DNA of 64,000 bases from Candidatus Nucleicultrix amoebiphila FS5 (GTDB lineage Bacteria > Pseudomonadota > Alphaproteobacteria > Caedimonadales > Nucleicultricaceae), in NCBI RefSeq assembly GCF_002117145.1, contig NZ_CP008743.1:868001-932000 (forward strand), read 5' to 3'. A program made the position numbers and the translations under genes. Shown here one piece after another: positions 39,631-45,239 of this stretch. Numbering within the stretch: the stretch's first letter is position 1; every line of letters begins with the position of its first letter. Under the pieces are notes generated by a model. That model saw nothing but the letters and a program-made list of their open reading frames with translations. It searched no databases and had not been told where the DNA came from.

Positions 39631-40017
39631 ATGACCCTTTTAAATAATTTTTCTTTTATTTCTGAAGCCCATGCCCAAGGAGCGGGTGGTGCTGGTGGAA
39701 GCTTTGACATCCTTGGTTTTGCCGCCCCTCTTTTGTTTCTCTTTGTGGTCATGTACTTTTTTATTATTCGTCCTCAAAAGAAAAAGGAAGCTGAGCATCG
39801 TCAACTAGTTTCCAACCTGAGGCGTGGCGATAAAGTAATTACCTCAAGCGGCATCTTCGGTTCTGTGTTTCGCGTCGTTAATGACACGGAAATTGAGATT
39901 GAAATTGCGAATAATGTACAAGTACGCATGTTGAAGAGCATGGTGTCTCAAGTTCTCGCTAAAACAGAGCCTTCTTCAAGCGTGGTGAATAATAAGCCAG
40001 ATAAAAAGAAGAAGTAG
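39631..40017 (+). CDS. yajC: Sec translocon accessory protein YajC
   Basis: Small membrane subunit of the SecDF-YajC complex. The 128-residue protein has an Ala/Gly-rich N-terminus and one membrane segment (APLLFLFVVMYFFIIRPQ, about residues 32-49). The signature RPQKKKEAEHR then leads into LRRGDKVITSSGIFG. GGAG lies nine bases before the ATG. It is directly upstream of secD. Confidence 0.96.
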   Translation: MTLLNNFSFISEAHAQGAGGAGGSFDILGFAAPLLFLFVVMYFFIIRPQKKKEAEHRQLVSNLRRGDKVITSSGIFGSVFRVVNDTEIEIEIANNVQVRMLKSMVSQVLAKTEPSSSVVNNKPDKKKK

Positions 40018-40025
40018 AGGATTCA

Positions 40026-41603
40026 ATGGTTCAACTGCCCCCTTGGAAGGTCATATTAATTTTATTCGCGTGCGTAATCGGGGTCATTTTGCCCCTTCCT
40101 AATATTTTACCCGAGACTGTTCTAAACAAACTTCCAACGTGGTATTCGAACCAAAAAATAAGCTTGGGACTTGATCTCCAGGGGGGATCTCATCTTCTTT
40201 TAGAAGTAGATGTTCAGCATGCCTTAAAAGATCGTTTAGACAGTCTCCTTGAGGGAACGCGTAAAATTCTGCGCAGCGAAAAAGTAGGGTATTTAAATCT
40301 AGCGATCAACAAAGATGCTGTCAGTTTTAAATTACGTGACGCAAGTCAAGCAACGCTTGCGCAAAGCATCTTAAAGAAAGAACAAAGCGATGCAGATGTG
40401 AGCTACGACCCTCAACAAGAAACTGTTACTTTGCACTTTAAAGATATTGCTATCAGTGATCGTAAATATAAAGTTCTACAACAATCCATTGAGATTGTTC
40501 GAAAGCGTATTGATCAATTGGGAACCAAAGAACCCAACATTCAACGCCAAGGAGATGATCGAATTTTGGTTCAACTTCCCGGCATTGAAGATCCTAGCCA
40601 CGTTAAAGCTCTTTTAGGAAAAACAGCACAAATGACATTTCGTCTTTTGCATCCTGAATATCCCGAAGCTGCGATGTTAGGAGGAAATCCCCCGCCTGCC
40701 GGCACTGAAATTCTACCGGGTGAATCTAAAAGTAATGGTGGACAAATTCAGTATGTGGTTATGAAAAAAATTCTGCTCGGTGGCGATAGCCTTGATGATG
40801 CTTCAGTCAGTTTTGATGAGTATAATAGGCCCCAAGTGAACTTTAAATTTGATACGCCAGGGGGTCGAAAATTTGCTGAAATAACCCGTGATAACATTGG
40901 TCGCAGATTGGCTATTGTTTTGGATAATCAGGTCATAAGCGCTCCGGTAATCAACAGCGTTATCCCAGGCAATGGCGTTATTCAGGGACAGTTTAGCGTT
41001 CAAGAAGCAAATGACTTAGCACTCCTCATGCGGGCAGGTGCTCTTCCTGCACCTTTGACTGTCATCGAAGAACGCACAGTCGGTCCAGATCTGGGCGCTG
41101 ACTCAATTGCCGCCGGTCATCGTGCGACAATTATTGGCGTTTTGTTTGTGTTAGCCTTTATGCTTGTTTCCTACTCGCTCTTTGGCATCATCGCTAATTT
41201 GGCCCTCATTTTTAACTTAATTTTCCTCTTTGCAGCTTTGTCTGTTTTGGGTGCTACTCTCACGCTTCCTGGTGTAGCCGGTATCGCTTTAACTTTAGGA
41301 ATGGCTGTGGACGCCAACGTGTTGATCTTTGAGCGTATCAAAGAAGAAATTCGCTTAGGCCGCAAGATGGTCTCTGCCATTGATTCAGGGTTCAGGCAAG
41401 CCATGGGAACAATTATTGACTCGAACGTCACCACTTTGTTTGCGGCAGCTGCTCTTTATTTCTTTGGTACAGGCCCTGTTCGTGGATTTGCGGTCACAAC
41501 GGCTGTTGGCATTATTATCTCAATGTTTACAGCGATCTCACTGACACGACTTTTAATTGTGGGTTGGTTGAAGATTTTTAAACCCTCCAAGCTCCCCATT
41601 TAA
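40026..41603 (+). CDS. secD: Protein translocase subunit SecD
   Basis: With SecF, uses the proton gradient to pull exported proteins through SecYEG. The 525-residue protein has an N-terminal membrane segment, then LGLDLQGGSHLLLEVD, the periplasmic P1 domain with the SecDF blocks, and GRRLAIVLDNQVISAPVINSVI. Five C-terminal membrane segments contain GPDLGADSI and the conserved proton-path residues in GMAVDANVLIFERIKEE. It lies nine bases after yajC and 15 before secF. Confidence 0.98.
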   Translation: MVQLPPWKVILILFACVIGVILPLPNILPETVLNKLPTWYSNQKISLGLDLQGGSHLLLEVDVQHALKDRLDSLLEGTRKILRSEKVGYLNLAINKDAVSFKLRDASQATLAQSILKKEQSDADVSYDPQQETVTLHFKDIAISDRKYKVLQQSIEIVRKRIDQLGTKEPNIQRQGDDRILVQLPGIEDPSHVKALLGKTAQMTFRLLHPEYPEAAMLGGNPPPAGTEILPGESKSNGGQIQYVVMKKILLGGDSLDDASVSFDEYNRPQVNFKFDTPGGRKFAEITRDNIGRRLAIVLDNQVISAPVINSVIPGNGVIQGQFSVQEANDLALLMRAGALPAPLTVIEERTVGPDLGADSIAAGHRATIIGVLFVLAFMLVSYSLFGIIANLALIFNLIFLFAALSVLGATLTLPGVAGIALTLGMAVDANVLIFERIKEEIRLGRKMVSAIDSGFRQAMGTIIDSNVTTLFAAAALYFFGTGPVRGFAVTTAVGIIISMFTAISLTRLLIVGWLKIFKPSKLPI

Positions 41604-41618
41604 TATAAGGATAGACTT

Positions 41619-42536
41619 ATGAAAGGCTTTCAATTCGTTCCAGTTAATACGAACATCCCTTTTACAGGGACTATTCGCTATGTCTCTTATTTAATCTCTT
41701 TAATTATGGTTGTCGGATCCATTGGCCTCTTTTTTGTCAAAGGCCTCAATTATGGCATCGATTTCAAAGGCGGATTTCTTATTGAAGTTCGCACACAAGC
41801 TCCCGCTGATTTATCCAAAATGCGTGCAGAGTTAAATGCACTTAATTTTGGCGAAGCAAAACTTCAAGAATTTGGCAGTAATCGAGATGTCATGATTCGA
41901 ATTGAACGTCAGCATGGAGACGAAAAGGCCCAATCCGCTGCGTTAGAGAAAATCAAAGAGACGCTTGGTCCAGATGTGGAATATCGTCGTGTGGAAACCG
42001 TAGGTCCCAAAGTGAGCGCGGACTTGATTCGAAATGGTGGTTATGCTGTCGCTTTTGCGATTATTCTTATTCTACTTTACATCTGGATTCGATTTGAATG
42101 GCAGTTTGGTCTCTGCTGTGTCATCAGTCTTATGCACGATTGTATCAGCGTGGTTGGATTCTATTCTCTTTTTAACGTTGAGTTTAGCGAAACAGCTTTC
42201 GTAGCAATTCTCACGACTCTTGGCTATTCGGTCAACGACACGGTGGTGATTTATGACCGTATTCGTGATAACCTACGTAAATATAAAAAGACACCTCTCA
42301 ATGAACTCGTGAACCGCAGTACCAATGAGACTTTATCCAGAACAGTGATGACCTCTTCAACTACAATGATGGCTCTTCTTGGTCTATACTTCTTTGGTGG
42401 ACCTGTGATTTCGGTATTTAGTCTCCCTATCTTAGTGGGTATTTTTGTAGGCACTCTTTCTTCTATCTTTGTCAGTGCCAACTTGCTTTTGCATTTCAAC
42501 ATTCGTCGTCAAGATGTTGAACAAACTGCTAATTAA
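41619..42536 (+). CDS. secF: Protein translocase subunit SecF
   Basis: Partner of SecD. The 305-residue protein shows LNYGIDFKGGFLIEVR after the first membrane helix, VGPKVSADLIRNGGYAVAFA, and LTTLGYSVNDTVVIYDRIRDNLR, which is the SecF form of the proton-conducting motif. Six membrane segments are expected. A hairpin terminator follows the stop by about five bases. Confidence 0.98.
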   Translation: MKGFQFVPVNTNIPFTGTIRYVSYLISLIMVVGSIGLFFVKGLNYGIDFKGGFLIEVRTQAPADLSKMRAELNALNFGEAKLQEFGSNRDVMIRIERQHGDEKAQSAALEKIKETLGPDVEYRRVETVGPKVSADLIRNGGYAVAFAIILILLYIWIRFEWQFGLCCVISLMHDCISVVGFYSLFNVEFSETAFVAILTTLGYSVNDTVVIYDRIRDNLRKYKKTPLNELVNRSTNETLSRTVMTSSTTMMALLGLYFFGGPVISVFSLPILVGIFVGTLSSIFVSANLLLHFNIRRQDVEQTAN

Positions 42537-42541
42537 ATAAA

Positions 42542-42570
42542 AAAGGACACTGAGAATCTCAGTGTCCTTT
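42542..42570. terminator. Bidirectional hairpin between secF and the LuxI-like gene
   Basis: Perfect 13-base inverted repeat (42542-42554 against 42558-42570) with a three-base loop. On the minus strand it is followed by six T residues and ATTT, a strong terminator for the gene at 42594-43172. On the plus strand only three T residues follow, so termination of secF here is possible but weaker. Confidence 0.85.
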
Positions 42571-42593: not shown

Positions 42594-43172
42594 TTAGCAA
42601 GCCAATTGTGGGTGTGACATTTCTTGAATTCTTAAGGACTTTAGAATTTCCAAAGGATTGCGTGCTTTCAATTGCAAATCGAGAATGCCCATAATAACGG
42701 GGGATGTTTCAAACTTCTCTATTTTCATTTCCGTATGGAATGACCATTGCCCAAGAAAACGCAGTTCTTGATGTAAGTTTTTAGGATGGTGCGTTACAAT
42801 CATTTTAGCTCTTTTTTCAACGGCAAAATCCTGTAATCCTTTGTAAAGTTCACTATAAAATTTCTTAATTAACTTTTGTGTCTCATCTTGATGCACATCT
42901 TCTTCTTGCAATCCCTCAATATCAAAGAAAACTTGTGAACATTCCCACACATTCTCTTCTCTCACCAAGCCAGCCGCAAATCTCTCAGTACGTGAAATTT
43001 TAGACTGTGTAATGGGCTGTAGTTTTGCACCCCCAATTAAACCCGATGATCGATCAATATAAACCACATAGGTCGTGTCGGTATTTTTTGTGGATTTTTT
43101 CTTCTCCCTCCCAAGAGAAGAAAATAATCCAGAAGTACTACTTGAAACTTCTTTAGTAATAAATTGCAACAT
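42594..43172 (-). CDS. LuxI-like (acyl-homoserine-lactone synthase fold) protein, N-terminally short
   Basis: A 192-residue protein that I align by eye to the LuxI family. DTTYVVYIDRSSGLIGGAKLQPIT matches the LuxI block D..YLV..D..G.V.G..RLLPT. VWECSQVFFD matches the block .WE.SRF.VD. The C-terminal half, with LQDFAVEKRAKMIVTHHP and LRFLGQWSFH, matches the rest of the acyltransferase fold. Two features argue against normal synthase activity: the N-terminal Arg-Phe-Trp region of LuxI is absent, and the conserved Arg of SRF is Gln here. The start is the ATG at 43172, seven bases from AGGAG; the ATG at 43178 lies against that motif. No luxR-type gene is present in the window. Confidence 0.55.
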   Translation of the reverse strand: MLQFITKEVSSSTSGLFSSLGREKKKSTKNTDTTYVVYIDRSSGLIGGAKLQPITQSKISRTERFAAGLVREENVWECSQVFFDIEGLQEEDVHQDETQKLIKKFYSELYKGLQDFAVEKRAKMIVTHHPKNLHQELRFLGQWSFHTEMKIEKFETSPVIMGILDLQLKARNPLEILKSLRIQEMSHPQLAC

Positions 43173-43178
43173 AACCAT

Positions 43179-43924
43179 CTCCTATAAAATATAAACTGTT
43201 GAGCAGAAGATCTCATACAAAAAATACTTTTTCAATCTTAGATTTTCGAAGACAATCTATTCATAAAACGAATAGTTGAAACTACAAATACTTTTTCTTT
43301 TCATTGTTATTTCTCTACTACAATGATCGCACAACTAAAGAAGGTTTAACGTTGGCTGCTCTTGATTGGGATGCGACGATACGCTTTAAACGATATCTCT
43401 TCGTTGCAAACATGATCGCGGGATTCCCTTTCCAAGGGCAAATTTTTTTATTTTCTTTTTCCAAGATTTTGTCTCTGCAAGCGCCTTTGTTCATAAGGGT
43501 TTTCAGAGGTCGTGTGCATTTTTTTTAATCTTTTTTCTTGGTCCTTTTTGCCCTTTAGGCGTATAAATACCCTTATGTTTGTTCTGCAGAATAACATTTA
43601 CCCTTGTCTCTCCCCAAGAGAGACTGGAGTAAGATACGTTAAAGAAGTAATAGGTCATTAAGATCTTAAGACCACACAGTAAACGATCTTTTAAAAGGAA
43701 GAGGGTTAGTTGTCCGCCGGCCCAGGACCTTTTAAGAAGATTTTTAGAGTGTTAAAAGAATTTTTCCCCGGGGAAAGAGCTTCGAAGAGAGAAGATTTGA
43801 GAGAAGAGTCTCCCTTTGAAAACGGTATCATGCTCTTTCCTCCCTCAGCGTCCTGAGCCACCCAGGCGATGGGGGAGTGAAAGAGTCATCACCCAAGAAC
43901 AATAAAAAAACATCGTCAGAAAAT
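43179..43924. other. Long non-coding stretch upstream of the palindromic repeats
   Basis: About 750 bases with no convincing gene; a 74-codon plus-strand frame at 43304-43528 has no motif. Visible structure includes the dyad CTATTC/GAATAG at 43257-43275, about 80 bases upstream of the LuxI-like gene; a GTCTCT/AGAGAC hairpin near 43606-43625; and a TTTCCCCGGGGAAA palindrome near 43767. The stretch 43600-43870 is less AT-rich than its surroundings and could encode a structured RNA, but I recognise none of the standard ones (RNase P, SRP, tmRNA, 6S). Confidence 0.5.
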
Positions 43925-44205
43925 GTCATCGCGCCGATTCTTTCAGAACCGCGGCAATTCAGCGTGCTTATTGGTAACCAAACCACGTCTCTGCGAGGCC
44001 CCTTGGCCGCGGCAGTCCATATTGCTTATTTAACTGGATCACGTCGCTTCGCTCGTGATGACGCACTTCTATAGGCCGTCATCGCGCCGGTCTTTCAGAA
44101 CCGCGACGCTCCAGCGTGTTTATTGGTAACCAAACCACGTCTCTGCGAGGCCCCTTGGCCGCGGCACTCTCGCTTGTTGTGCTGGATTGCGTCGCTCGTC
44201 AAGGC
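43925..44205. repeat. Two copies of a GC-rich palindromic intergenic repeat
   Basis: Copy 1 (43925-44062) and copy 2 (44078-44205) share about 88 bases almost exactly, starting GTCATCGCGCC and ending CCGCGGCA. Each then has a CTGGAT...CGTCGC...CGCTCGT tail. Internal dyads include TTGGT-A-ACCAA and a GGCC-CCTT-GGCC hairpin. The tail resembles the dispersed short palindromic repeats found between genes in many alphaproteobacteria. The composition differs sharply from the surrounding AT-rich DNA. No coding function is seen. Confidence 0.8.
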
Positions 44206-44324: not shown

Positions 44325-45239
44325 ATGGATTGGGATAAGTTGAAGTTATTCTACATCACCGCAAAGATCGGCAACATTTCAAAGGCTGCTCGAGAGCTGA
44401 ATGTTACCCAATCTGCCCTTAGTCGGCGCATATCAAGTCTTGAAGAAGACTTAGGTACGCAGCTTTTAAACCGTCACTTAAGAGGGGTGACGTTAACCTC
44501 TCAAGGAAAAGCTATTTTTCCTGAACTAGAAAAAGCCTTTAATAAACTTGAATCTCTCAATCAAATCATCCAATCCATGGATAATACTCTTGCAGGCGAT
44601 CTACGCATTGCGTCGAACTTTGGGTTTATTGATACTTGGCTCAACTATTATCTTCCTGATTTTATTAAAAAGCACGCCGAGATTAGACTATCCGTTCTTG
44701 TCAAAGAAAAAATCGTCGACCTTATTGATGAAGGTATTGATCTCGTCATTACGAGCTTCTTTCCCGATTCACCTCTCGTTGAAAAAGAATTTTTGATGAG
44801 CTGGAACCGTTGTCTTTATGCGAGCGAAGGATATCTCAAACAGTTTGGCATTCCTAAAACCGTCCAAGATCTCAGTCATCATCGGCTAATCAGCTTTGGT
44901 GAGAGCAAATCCTTTCTTCATGAAGATAGAGACTGGCATTTAAAAATTGGTACTGAACCTGGCGAAAGACGCGAGCCATATCTCGCGATTAATTCTATGC
45001 GTGCCATGTTGACAGCGGCCCAAAATGACATAGGCATCATAAGTTTTTCTCAAGAATCACTTCTATTGAAAGATACCAACTTGATCCGCGTATTACCTGA
45101 GATTCAAGGTCCTCATATTGATATTTTTATGGTTTATCTGAAACAGCAGGAAAGCCTTGAGCGCCTTAAGATCTTTCGTAATTTTCTTAAAGAACAAGCA
45201 GAAAAAACAAAAATTACGCCGGGCATTAAACAACCGTAA
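44325..45239 (+). CDS. LysR-family transcriptional regulator
   Basis: A 304-residue regulator with the N-terminal winged helix-turn-helix typical of LysR (LKLFYITAKIGNISKAARELNVTQSALSRRISSLEEDLG, residues 5-43). A C-terminal periplasmic-binding-like effector domain runs from about residue 90. The target genes are not clear. The neighbouring upstream DNA is the repeat-rich non-coding region, and downstream the gene is convergent with addA, overlapping its end by 14 bases. It may be autoregulatory, as LysR proteins often are. Confidence 0.93.
   Translation: MDWDKLKLFYITAKIGNISKAARELNVTQSALSRRISSLEEDLGTQLLNRHLRGVTLTSQGKAIFPELEKAFNKLESLNQIIQSMDNTLAGDLRIASNFGFIDTWLNYYLPDFIKKHAEIRLSVLVKEKIVDLIDEGIDLVITSFFPDSPLVEKEFLMSWNRCLYASEGYLKQFGIPKTVQDLSHHRLISFGESKSFLHEDRDWHLKIGTEPGERREPYLAINSMRAMLTAAQNDIGIISFSQESLLLKDTNLIRVLPEIQGPHIDIFMVYLKQQESLERLKIFRNFLKEQAEKTKITPGIKQP

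Follow-up and report, generated by a model that had tools for sequence, protein, structure and literature searches.

We identified the gene at 42594..43172 on the minus strand of the window (the whole stretch of 64,000 nucleotides that was analysed) as a member of a previously unnoticed and undescribed branch of LuxI proteins, seen in Alphaproteobacteria that are uncultured and mostly have small genomes. The catalytic residues indicate that this family very probably makes no acyl-homoserine lactones (AHLs), and it has probably taken on another role instead of falling into decay. We see a roughly even chance that the branch is LuxI-derived, is without AHL synthesis and consists of working, regulated genes that likely encode an acyl-handling enzyme with an acceptor other than S-adenosylmethionine (SAM).

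The gene and its LuxI relatives

The ORF at 42594-43172 is a real gene encoding 192 aa, as read from the sequence and from the paralogue and profile evidence. Its full extent is 42594-43178 (−), with an in-frame ATG at 43178 that would add the residues MV; AGGAG at 43179..43183 (−), read from the sequence, lies 6 nt before the ATG at 43172 and is probably its ribosome-binding site. The gene is convergent with secF of the yajC-secD-secF genes (39631-42536, named by eye), and 58 bp separate their ends. Within this gap, a 29-bp dyad at 42542..42570, read from the sequence, is probably a terminator common to both. In another locus, the LuxI-like gene L074:8009-8629, whose product scores above the Pfam cut-off, is divergent from yajC-secD-secF, with the window member lying at the opposite end of that operon.

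Searched alone, the window protein matched no Pfam family, except for a chance row at E 0.17, no NCBIfam model, and nothing among PDB sequences at E below 0.08. Its own genome, a single contig of 1.84 Mb, encodes a paralogue (L007) at C1:357166-357681 that is 37% identical over 132 residues and scores 22.6 bits against PF00765, at which the cut-off is 24. The profile of the window protein and this paralogue aligned with ten canonical LuxI proteins at 97.4% and E 1.3e-11 (hhalign), while family profiles of 14 and 26 members aligned with ten ordinary LuxI proteins at 95.9%, E 6.4e-9, and 98.7%, E 2.2e-16, respectively; these E-values are from single comparisons, and the alignments span the whole length. 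Against PDB, the family profile retrieved five sequences at E≤1, all of them AHL or coumaroyl-HL synthases, with TofI as the best (E 7e-6). PF00765 matches 3 of the 26 family members, a G155 member (L074/L017) scoring 25.8 bits and so passing the cut-off, and none of the 26 has a match to another Pfam family; the TraI-type AHL-synthase models of NCBIfam also match 3/26, for which they are the best models. By profile, then, the LuxI resemblance of the window protein appears real, and it is invisible to single-sequence searches. The initial annotation had proposed this relatedness and had named the lack of any profile match as what would speak against it; a match was obtained both with the paralogue and with the family. 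In a tree of 43 rows, canonical LuxI and the LuxI-like family split at 100/99 support; the place of the window protein inside the family is unsettled, with the paralogue nearest.

The search for homologues in related bacteria, suggested at the outset, yielded the paralogue and some 30 relatives from other alphaproteobacterial genomes. With the single protein, relatives were detected in 5 of 93 genomes, its own included. The profile matched 18/385 genomes of the class, where, with ORFs judged by eye, 7 carried the short family, 10 ordinary LuxI and one (L026) a weak unrelated match (E 4e-4). Relatives were also present in 6 of 10 genomes of the order and in 13 named loci, all metagenome-assembled and assigned to Alphaproteobacteria or Proteobacteria. 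In the phylum sample, 2/398 genomes matched besides the own genome, both with an ordinary LuxI and an adjoining LuxR-like gene (by eye). In one genome the family has up to eight copies. The 93 genomes of the single-protein search yielded no close ortholog of the window gene, and neither did the contig scan, in which the window protein alone gave 68 pattern matches with no relative among them. Plasmid copies of the window protein were not found either, and a plasmid search with L017 returned one Mesorhizobium AHL synthase. The initial annotation had missed the paralogue and the family, as well as a divergent LysR gene and the setting of relatives in mobile elements. Literature searches on AHL synthases in Holosporales, LuxI in Paracaedibacter and LuxI pseudoenzymes returned nothing on such a family, and the accessible part of a 2025 review of Holosporales nowhere mentions quorum, LuxI or LuxR.

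Catalytic residues, predicted fold and selection

Ten LuxI-defining residues, whose numbering we take to follow EsaI, were compared in 30 family rows, some of which are near-identical orthologs, and 10 canonical rows. Each is kept in 9-10 of the 10 canonical rows. In the family, by contrast, the N-terminal residues R24, F28 and W34 are kept in 6, 3 and 0 of 30 rows, the acidic-block residues E43, D45 and D48 in 6, 6 and 15, and R68, F82, E97 and R100 in 9, 0, 17 and 1, respectively. At Trp34, all 30 family rows show a gap, the loop being deleted. In the window protein, R24, F28 and W34 are absent, Lys stands at R68 and Gln at R100, and of the ten positions E97 is kept, as is E43 if an uncertain alignment is correct. 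The missing N-terminal Arg/Phe/Trp block and the change of the SRF Arg to Gln, both read earlier from the sequence, were thus recovered in the alignment. Since the Trp34 loop is gone in 30/30 rows and Arg100 is kept in 1/30, both are traits of the family; to these the window protein adds a further shortening, its N-terminus being about 12 residues shorter than is usual in the family and the most reduced of all. Member L017 keeps D45, D48, R68, E97 and R100, and the acidic E/D/D block is partly retained in both L017 and the paralogue L007. As the loop is deleted and most residues of the SAM/AHL site are lost, it is very probable that AHL synthesis was lost with them.

An AlphaFold2 model made from the window protein and 13 relatives reached a mean pLDDT of 63.5 and a pTM of 0.60; ten-residue pLDDT means were 54-85 for residues 31 to 140, and the C-terminus is unreliable. 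In this model of moderate confidence, strands and helices follow the order of the GNAT/LuxI fold, in agreement with the fold first proposed. Foldseek gave no row at E≤0.001; LasI, TofI, EsaI and a number of GNATs appeared at E 0.01-0.1, the top row being 7byy, a structure titled bacterial toxin (E 0.014). With VIA-align, LasI gave Z 8.3 over 147 residues at 5.2 Å, Naa60 8.6, TofI 8.2, FeeM 8.0 and EsaI 7.9. The LuxI and GNAT scores are tied, and therefore the fold alone does not decide between the two. The GNAT CoA loop carries the motif [QR]xxGx[GA], which is absent from the window protein and from 28 of the 30 family rows.

The family is under purifying selection, as shown for ortholog pairs of the relatives. 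Two G004/G007 pairs had dN/dS of 0.07 and 0.066 and a G001/G008 pair 0.27, while one pair was saturated at synonymous sites, with pN/pS of 0.16. Values of about 0.07 argue against decay.

Neighbouring regulators and conjugation genes

A LysR-type regulator gene (44325..45239, +; PF00126 with 72 bits, and PF03466) lies upstream of the LuxI-like gene and divergent from it, across a gap of 1147 bp (1.15 kb). The two may be partners. Within the gap are two copies, about 85% alike, of a direct repeat of approximately 120 bp (43925-44048 and 44078-44196), and the closest LysRs, from G014/G329, adjoin a transporter gene, not a LuxI-like gene; for these reasons the pairing here may be a coincidence. 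The idea of one LysR clade tied to all LuxI-like copies was rejected, as the adjacent LysRs were not one clade in the comparison. Also between the two genes, 43745-43890 (+) holds a long G+C-rich hairpin, folds better than its shuffles (z −3.3, 0/200) and may be a small RNA gene. A known RNA family was rejected for this intergenic region, at which the Rfam search gave no match of weight (best E 0.27).

The 19-base dyad reported earlier upstream of the gene, CTATTCATAAAACGAATAG, is present at 43257..43275 and is no better than chance: 143 of about 63,980 19-mers in the window equal or beat its score, and an equal arm was found in 50/100 shuffles of the 200-bp upstream region. Its reading as a Lux box was thus rejected. 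An operator common to the whole LuxI-like family was rejected too, since the best upstream dyad was above the shuffle level in just four loci (reached by 0/100 shuffles in L049, 3 in L050, 3 in L057 and 0 in L058); it was reached by 8 to 100 of 100 shuffles in L051-L054, L056, L064, L067, L076 and the window.

No LuxR was found in the 64,000-nt window, in keeping with the initial annotation, which had noted no LuxR partner nearby. The one Autoind_bind protein found in the genome (C1:201152-201820, or L090:7153-7821) lies about 0.7 Mb from the LuxI-like gene; it is a lone PF03472 protein (41 bits) with no LuxI gene beside it and no LuxR HTH by Pfam. An adjacent luxR is common for LuxI, though not strict, and the window gene has none. 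The ordinary LuxI genes that we met (L071, L092 and L093) had an Autoind_bind or LuxR-like neighbour (partly read by eye). In G006, from the same order, the ordinary LuxI gene L071:8010-8714 has a convergent Autoind_bind gene, and one member of the short family is found elsewhere in that genome.

Other regulators are frequent next to the family. Among 28 members in ten genomes, counted by hand, 12 lie within 1.5 kb of a divergent LysR or XRE gene, while random placement expects about 0.16 for either and 0.09 for LysR. Six have a divergent LysR HTH within 1.5 kb upstream (G000, G004, G007, G014, G155 and G329), and six further members have an HTH_26 regulator within that distance (G014, G329 and four in G249). 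As G004/G007 and G014/G329 are ortholog pairs, these amount to about eight independent cases. In G001 and G008, the LysR gene is further away, with other genes between. The nearest upstream gene of at least 100 aa is a divergent LysR, XRE or LuxR-HTH gene in 17/33 non-canonical rows, which are not independent because orthologs were counted more than once, versus 4/424 background genes. This background figure is a minimum, as the neighbours themselves served to seed the regulator models; the count excludes the duplicates L063 and L085-L087 and loci truncated by a contig end. An adjacent regulator is missing in about half of the family, including the own-genome paralogue, which is the closest relative. 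The XRE neighbours of different paralogues are related over their full length, being 25-68% identical to that of L049. In G329, two copies lie opposite giant LuxR-HTH/NB-ARC/TPR proteins, in one case at a distance of 1.6 kb. Regulators of about 1,200 aa with a LuxR-type HTH, NB-ARC and TPR were seen at L073:9086-12814 and L072:2480-6136, divergent from LuxI-like genes. The gaps between family members and their divergent regulators are about 100-1600 bp.

In G006, G329, G249 and L059, the LuxI-like gene adjoins F-type tra genes and a gene that belongs to no known family, in some cases with ssb as well. Pfam confirmed TraL, TraE, TraK and TrbI-like/TraB in L059, and TraE and TraC in L070, where TraK was just below the cut-off. 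At L059:7528-14658, L072:7250-14318 and L070:768-10834, the LuxI-like gene heads an F-type conjugation operon; the adjoining gene of no known family has 430-620 aa, and ssb is also present in L059 and L072. The window gene is outside such a setting, the one traE of its genome being 116 kb away.

Alternative readings and known systems

In the preferred reading, the branch keeps the LuxI/GNAT fold minus the Trp34 loop and most residues of the SAM/AHL site. Its members are working genes, as purifying selection shows for relatives, and are often single and divergent from an HTH regulator (LysR, XRE or LuxR-HTH/NB-ARC) or else the first gene of an F-type conjugation operon. Most likely, the protein would be a regulated acyl-handling enzyme, with an acyl-ACP-like donor, an acceptor other than SAM and an acyl product that is not an AHL; the regulator next to it would control the enzyme or sense its product, as the fold and the gene layout suggest.

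The proteins could also be pseudoenzymes, in which a dead LuxI fold binds a protein (a regulator or the conjugation machinery) or sequesters an acyl ligand. This is doubtful, although the catalytic loss is family-wide (W34 and F82 kept in no row, R100 in 1/30, D45 in 6, R68 in 9 and E97 in 17), the neighbouring regulators are diverse and selection is purifying; E97 persists in 17/30 rows, including the window's, and L017 keeps five of the residues, so some members may be active. That the family still makes AHLs or AHL-like products, with SAM bound in another way, seems quite improbable, as the window protein lacks R24, F28, W34, R68 and R100 and has no LuxR partner, while the three ordinary LuxI genes had an Autoind_bind or LuxR-like neighbour. 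On the other hand, LuxI ancestry by profile and the acidic residues retained in L017 and L007 would fit it, and LuxI solos that make AHL without LuxR exist elsewhere, according to the available part of PMC13136126.

Two other readings are less probable still. The initial annotation offered a decayed synthase or a repurposed acyltransferase. A decaying gene that is leaving the genome would agree with the strong N-terminal reduction of the window protein (about 12 residues) and with its lack of single-sequence matches in Pfam and NCBIfam, but we consider it very unlikely: the frame is open and has a ribosome-binding site, the losses are common to the family across several alphaproteobacterial families, with open frames, and dN/dS is about 0.07 in relatives. 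Repurposing, on the other hand, is favoured, with acyltransferase activity as a putative function. Finally, a GNAT-type toxin with an HTH antitoxin is suggested by the GNAT-like fold, by 7byy as the top Foldseek row (E 0.014) and by the XRE neighbours of some relatives. It is extremely improbable, given that the regulators are divergent at about 100-1600 bp and not in a co-directional toxin-antitoxin operon, that the CoA-loop motif is absent from the window protein and 28/30 rows, and that the profile evidence favours LuxI over GNAT.

A further proposal, which we regard as unlikely, is a second, SAM-independent LuxI lineage that makes a non-homoserine acyl signal, is spread in part by F-type conjugation and is wired to adjacent divergent regulators. 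If true, it would represent quorum-sensing-like control without LuxR in Alphaproteobacteria that are uncultured and perhaps host-associated. Making AHLs is regarded as a conserved property of LuxI proteins, and a selected branch without the SAM machinery, attached to non-LuxR regulators and conjugation operons, would be a signal synthase turned to another job. Such a branch would also offer a candidate that can be tested for chemical signalling in bacteria where little of it is expected.

Among known systems, GNAT N-acetyltransferases have the fold of the window model (Z up to 8.6), but most of the family lacks their CoA-loop motif and no Pfam GNAT match was found in 26 members. FeeM-type N-acyl amino acid synthases, which use acyl-ACP and form a non-AHL product, share the fold as well (Z 8.0); the likeness is at the fold level, as no search matched them to the LuxI-like family by sequence. 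The closest likeness is to the LuxI AHL synthases (PF00765), and within them to the TraI subgroup, by full-length profile homology, by the one member above the Pfam cut-off and by the three for which TraI models are the best. The family differs from them in the absence of the Trp34 loop (30/30), of F82 and of R100 (kept in 1/30), and in having LysR, XRE or NB-ARC-LuxR-HTH regulators as neighbours in place of a LuxR partner. For those relatives that head tra operons, the known parallel is plasmid traI, a LuxI gene beside transfer genes, according to the available part of PMC5977203.
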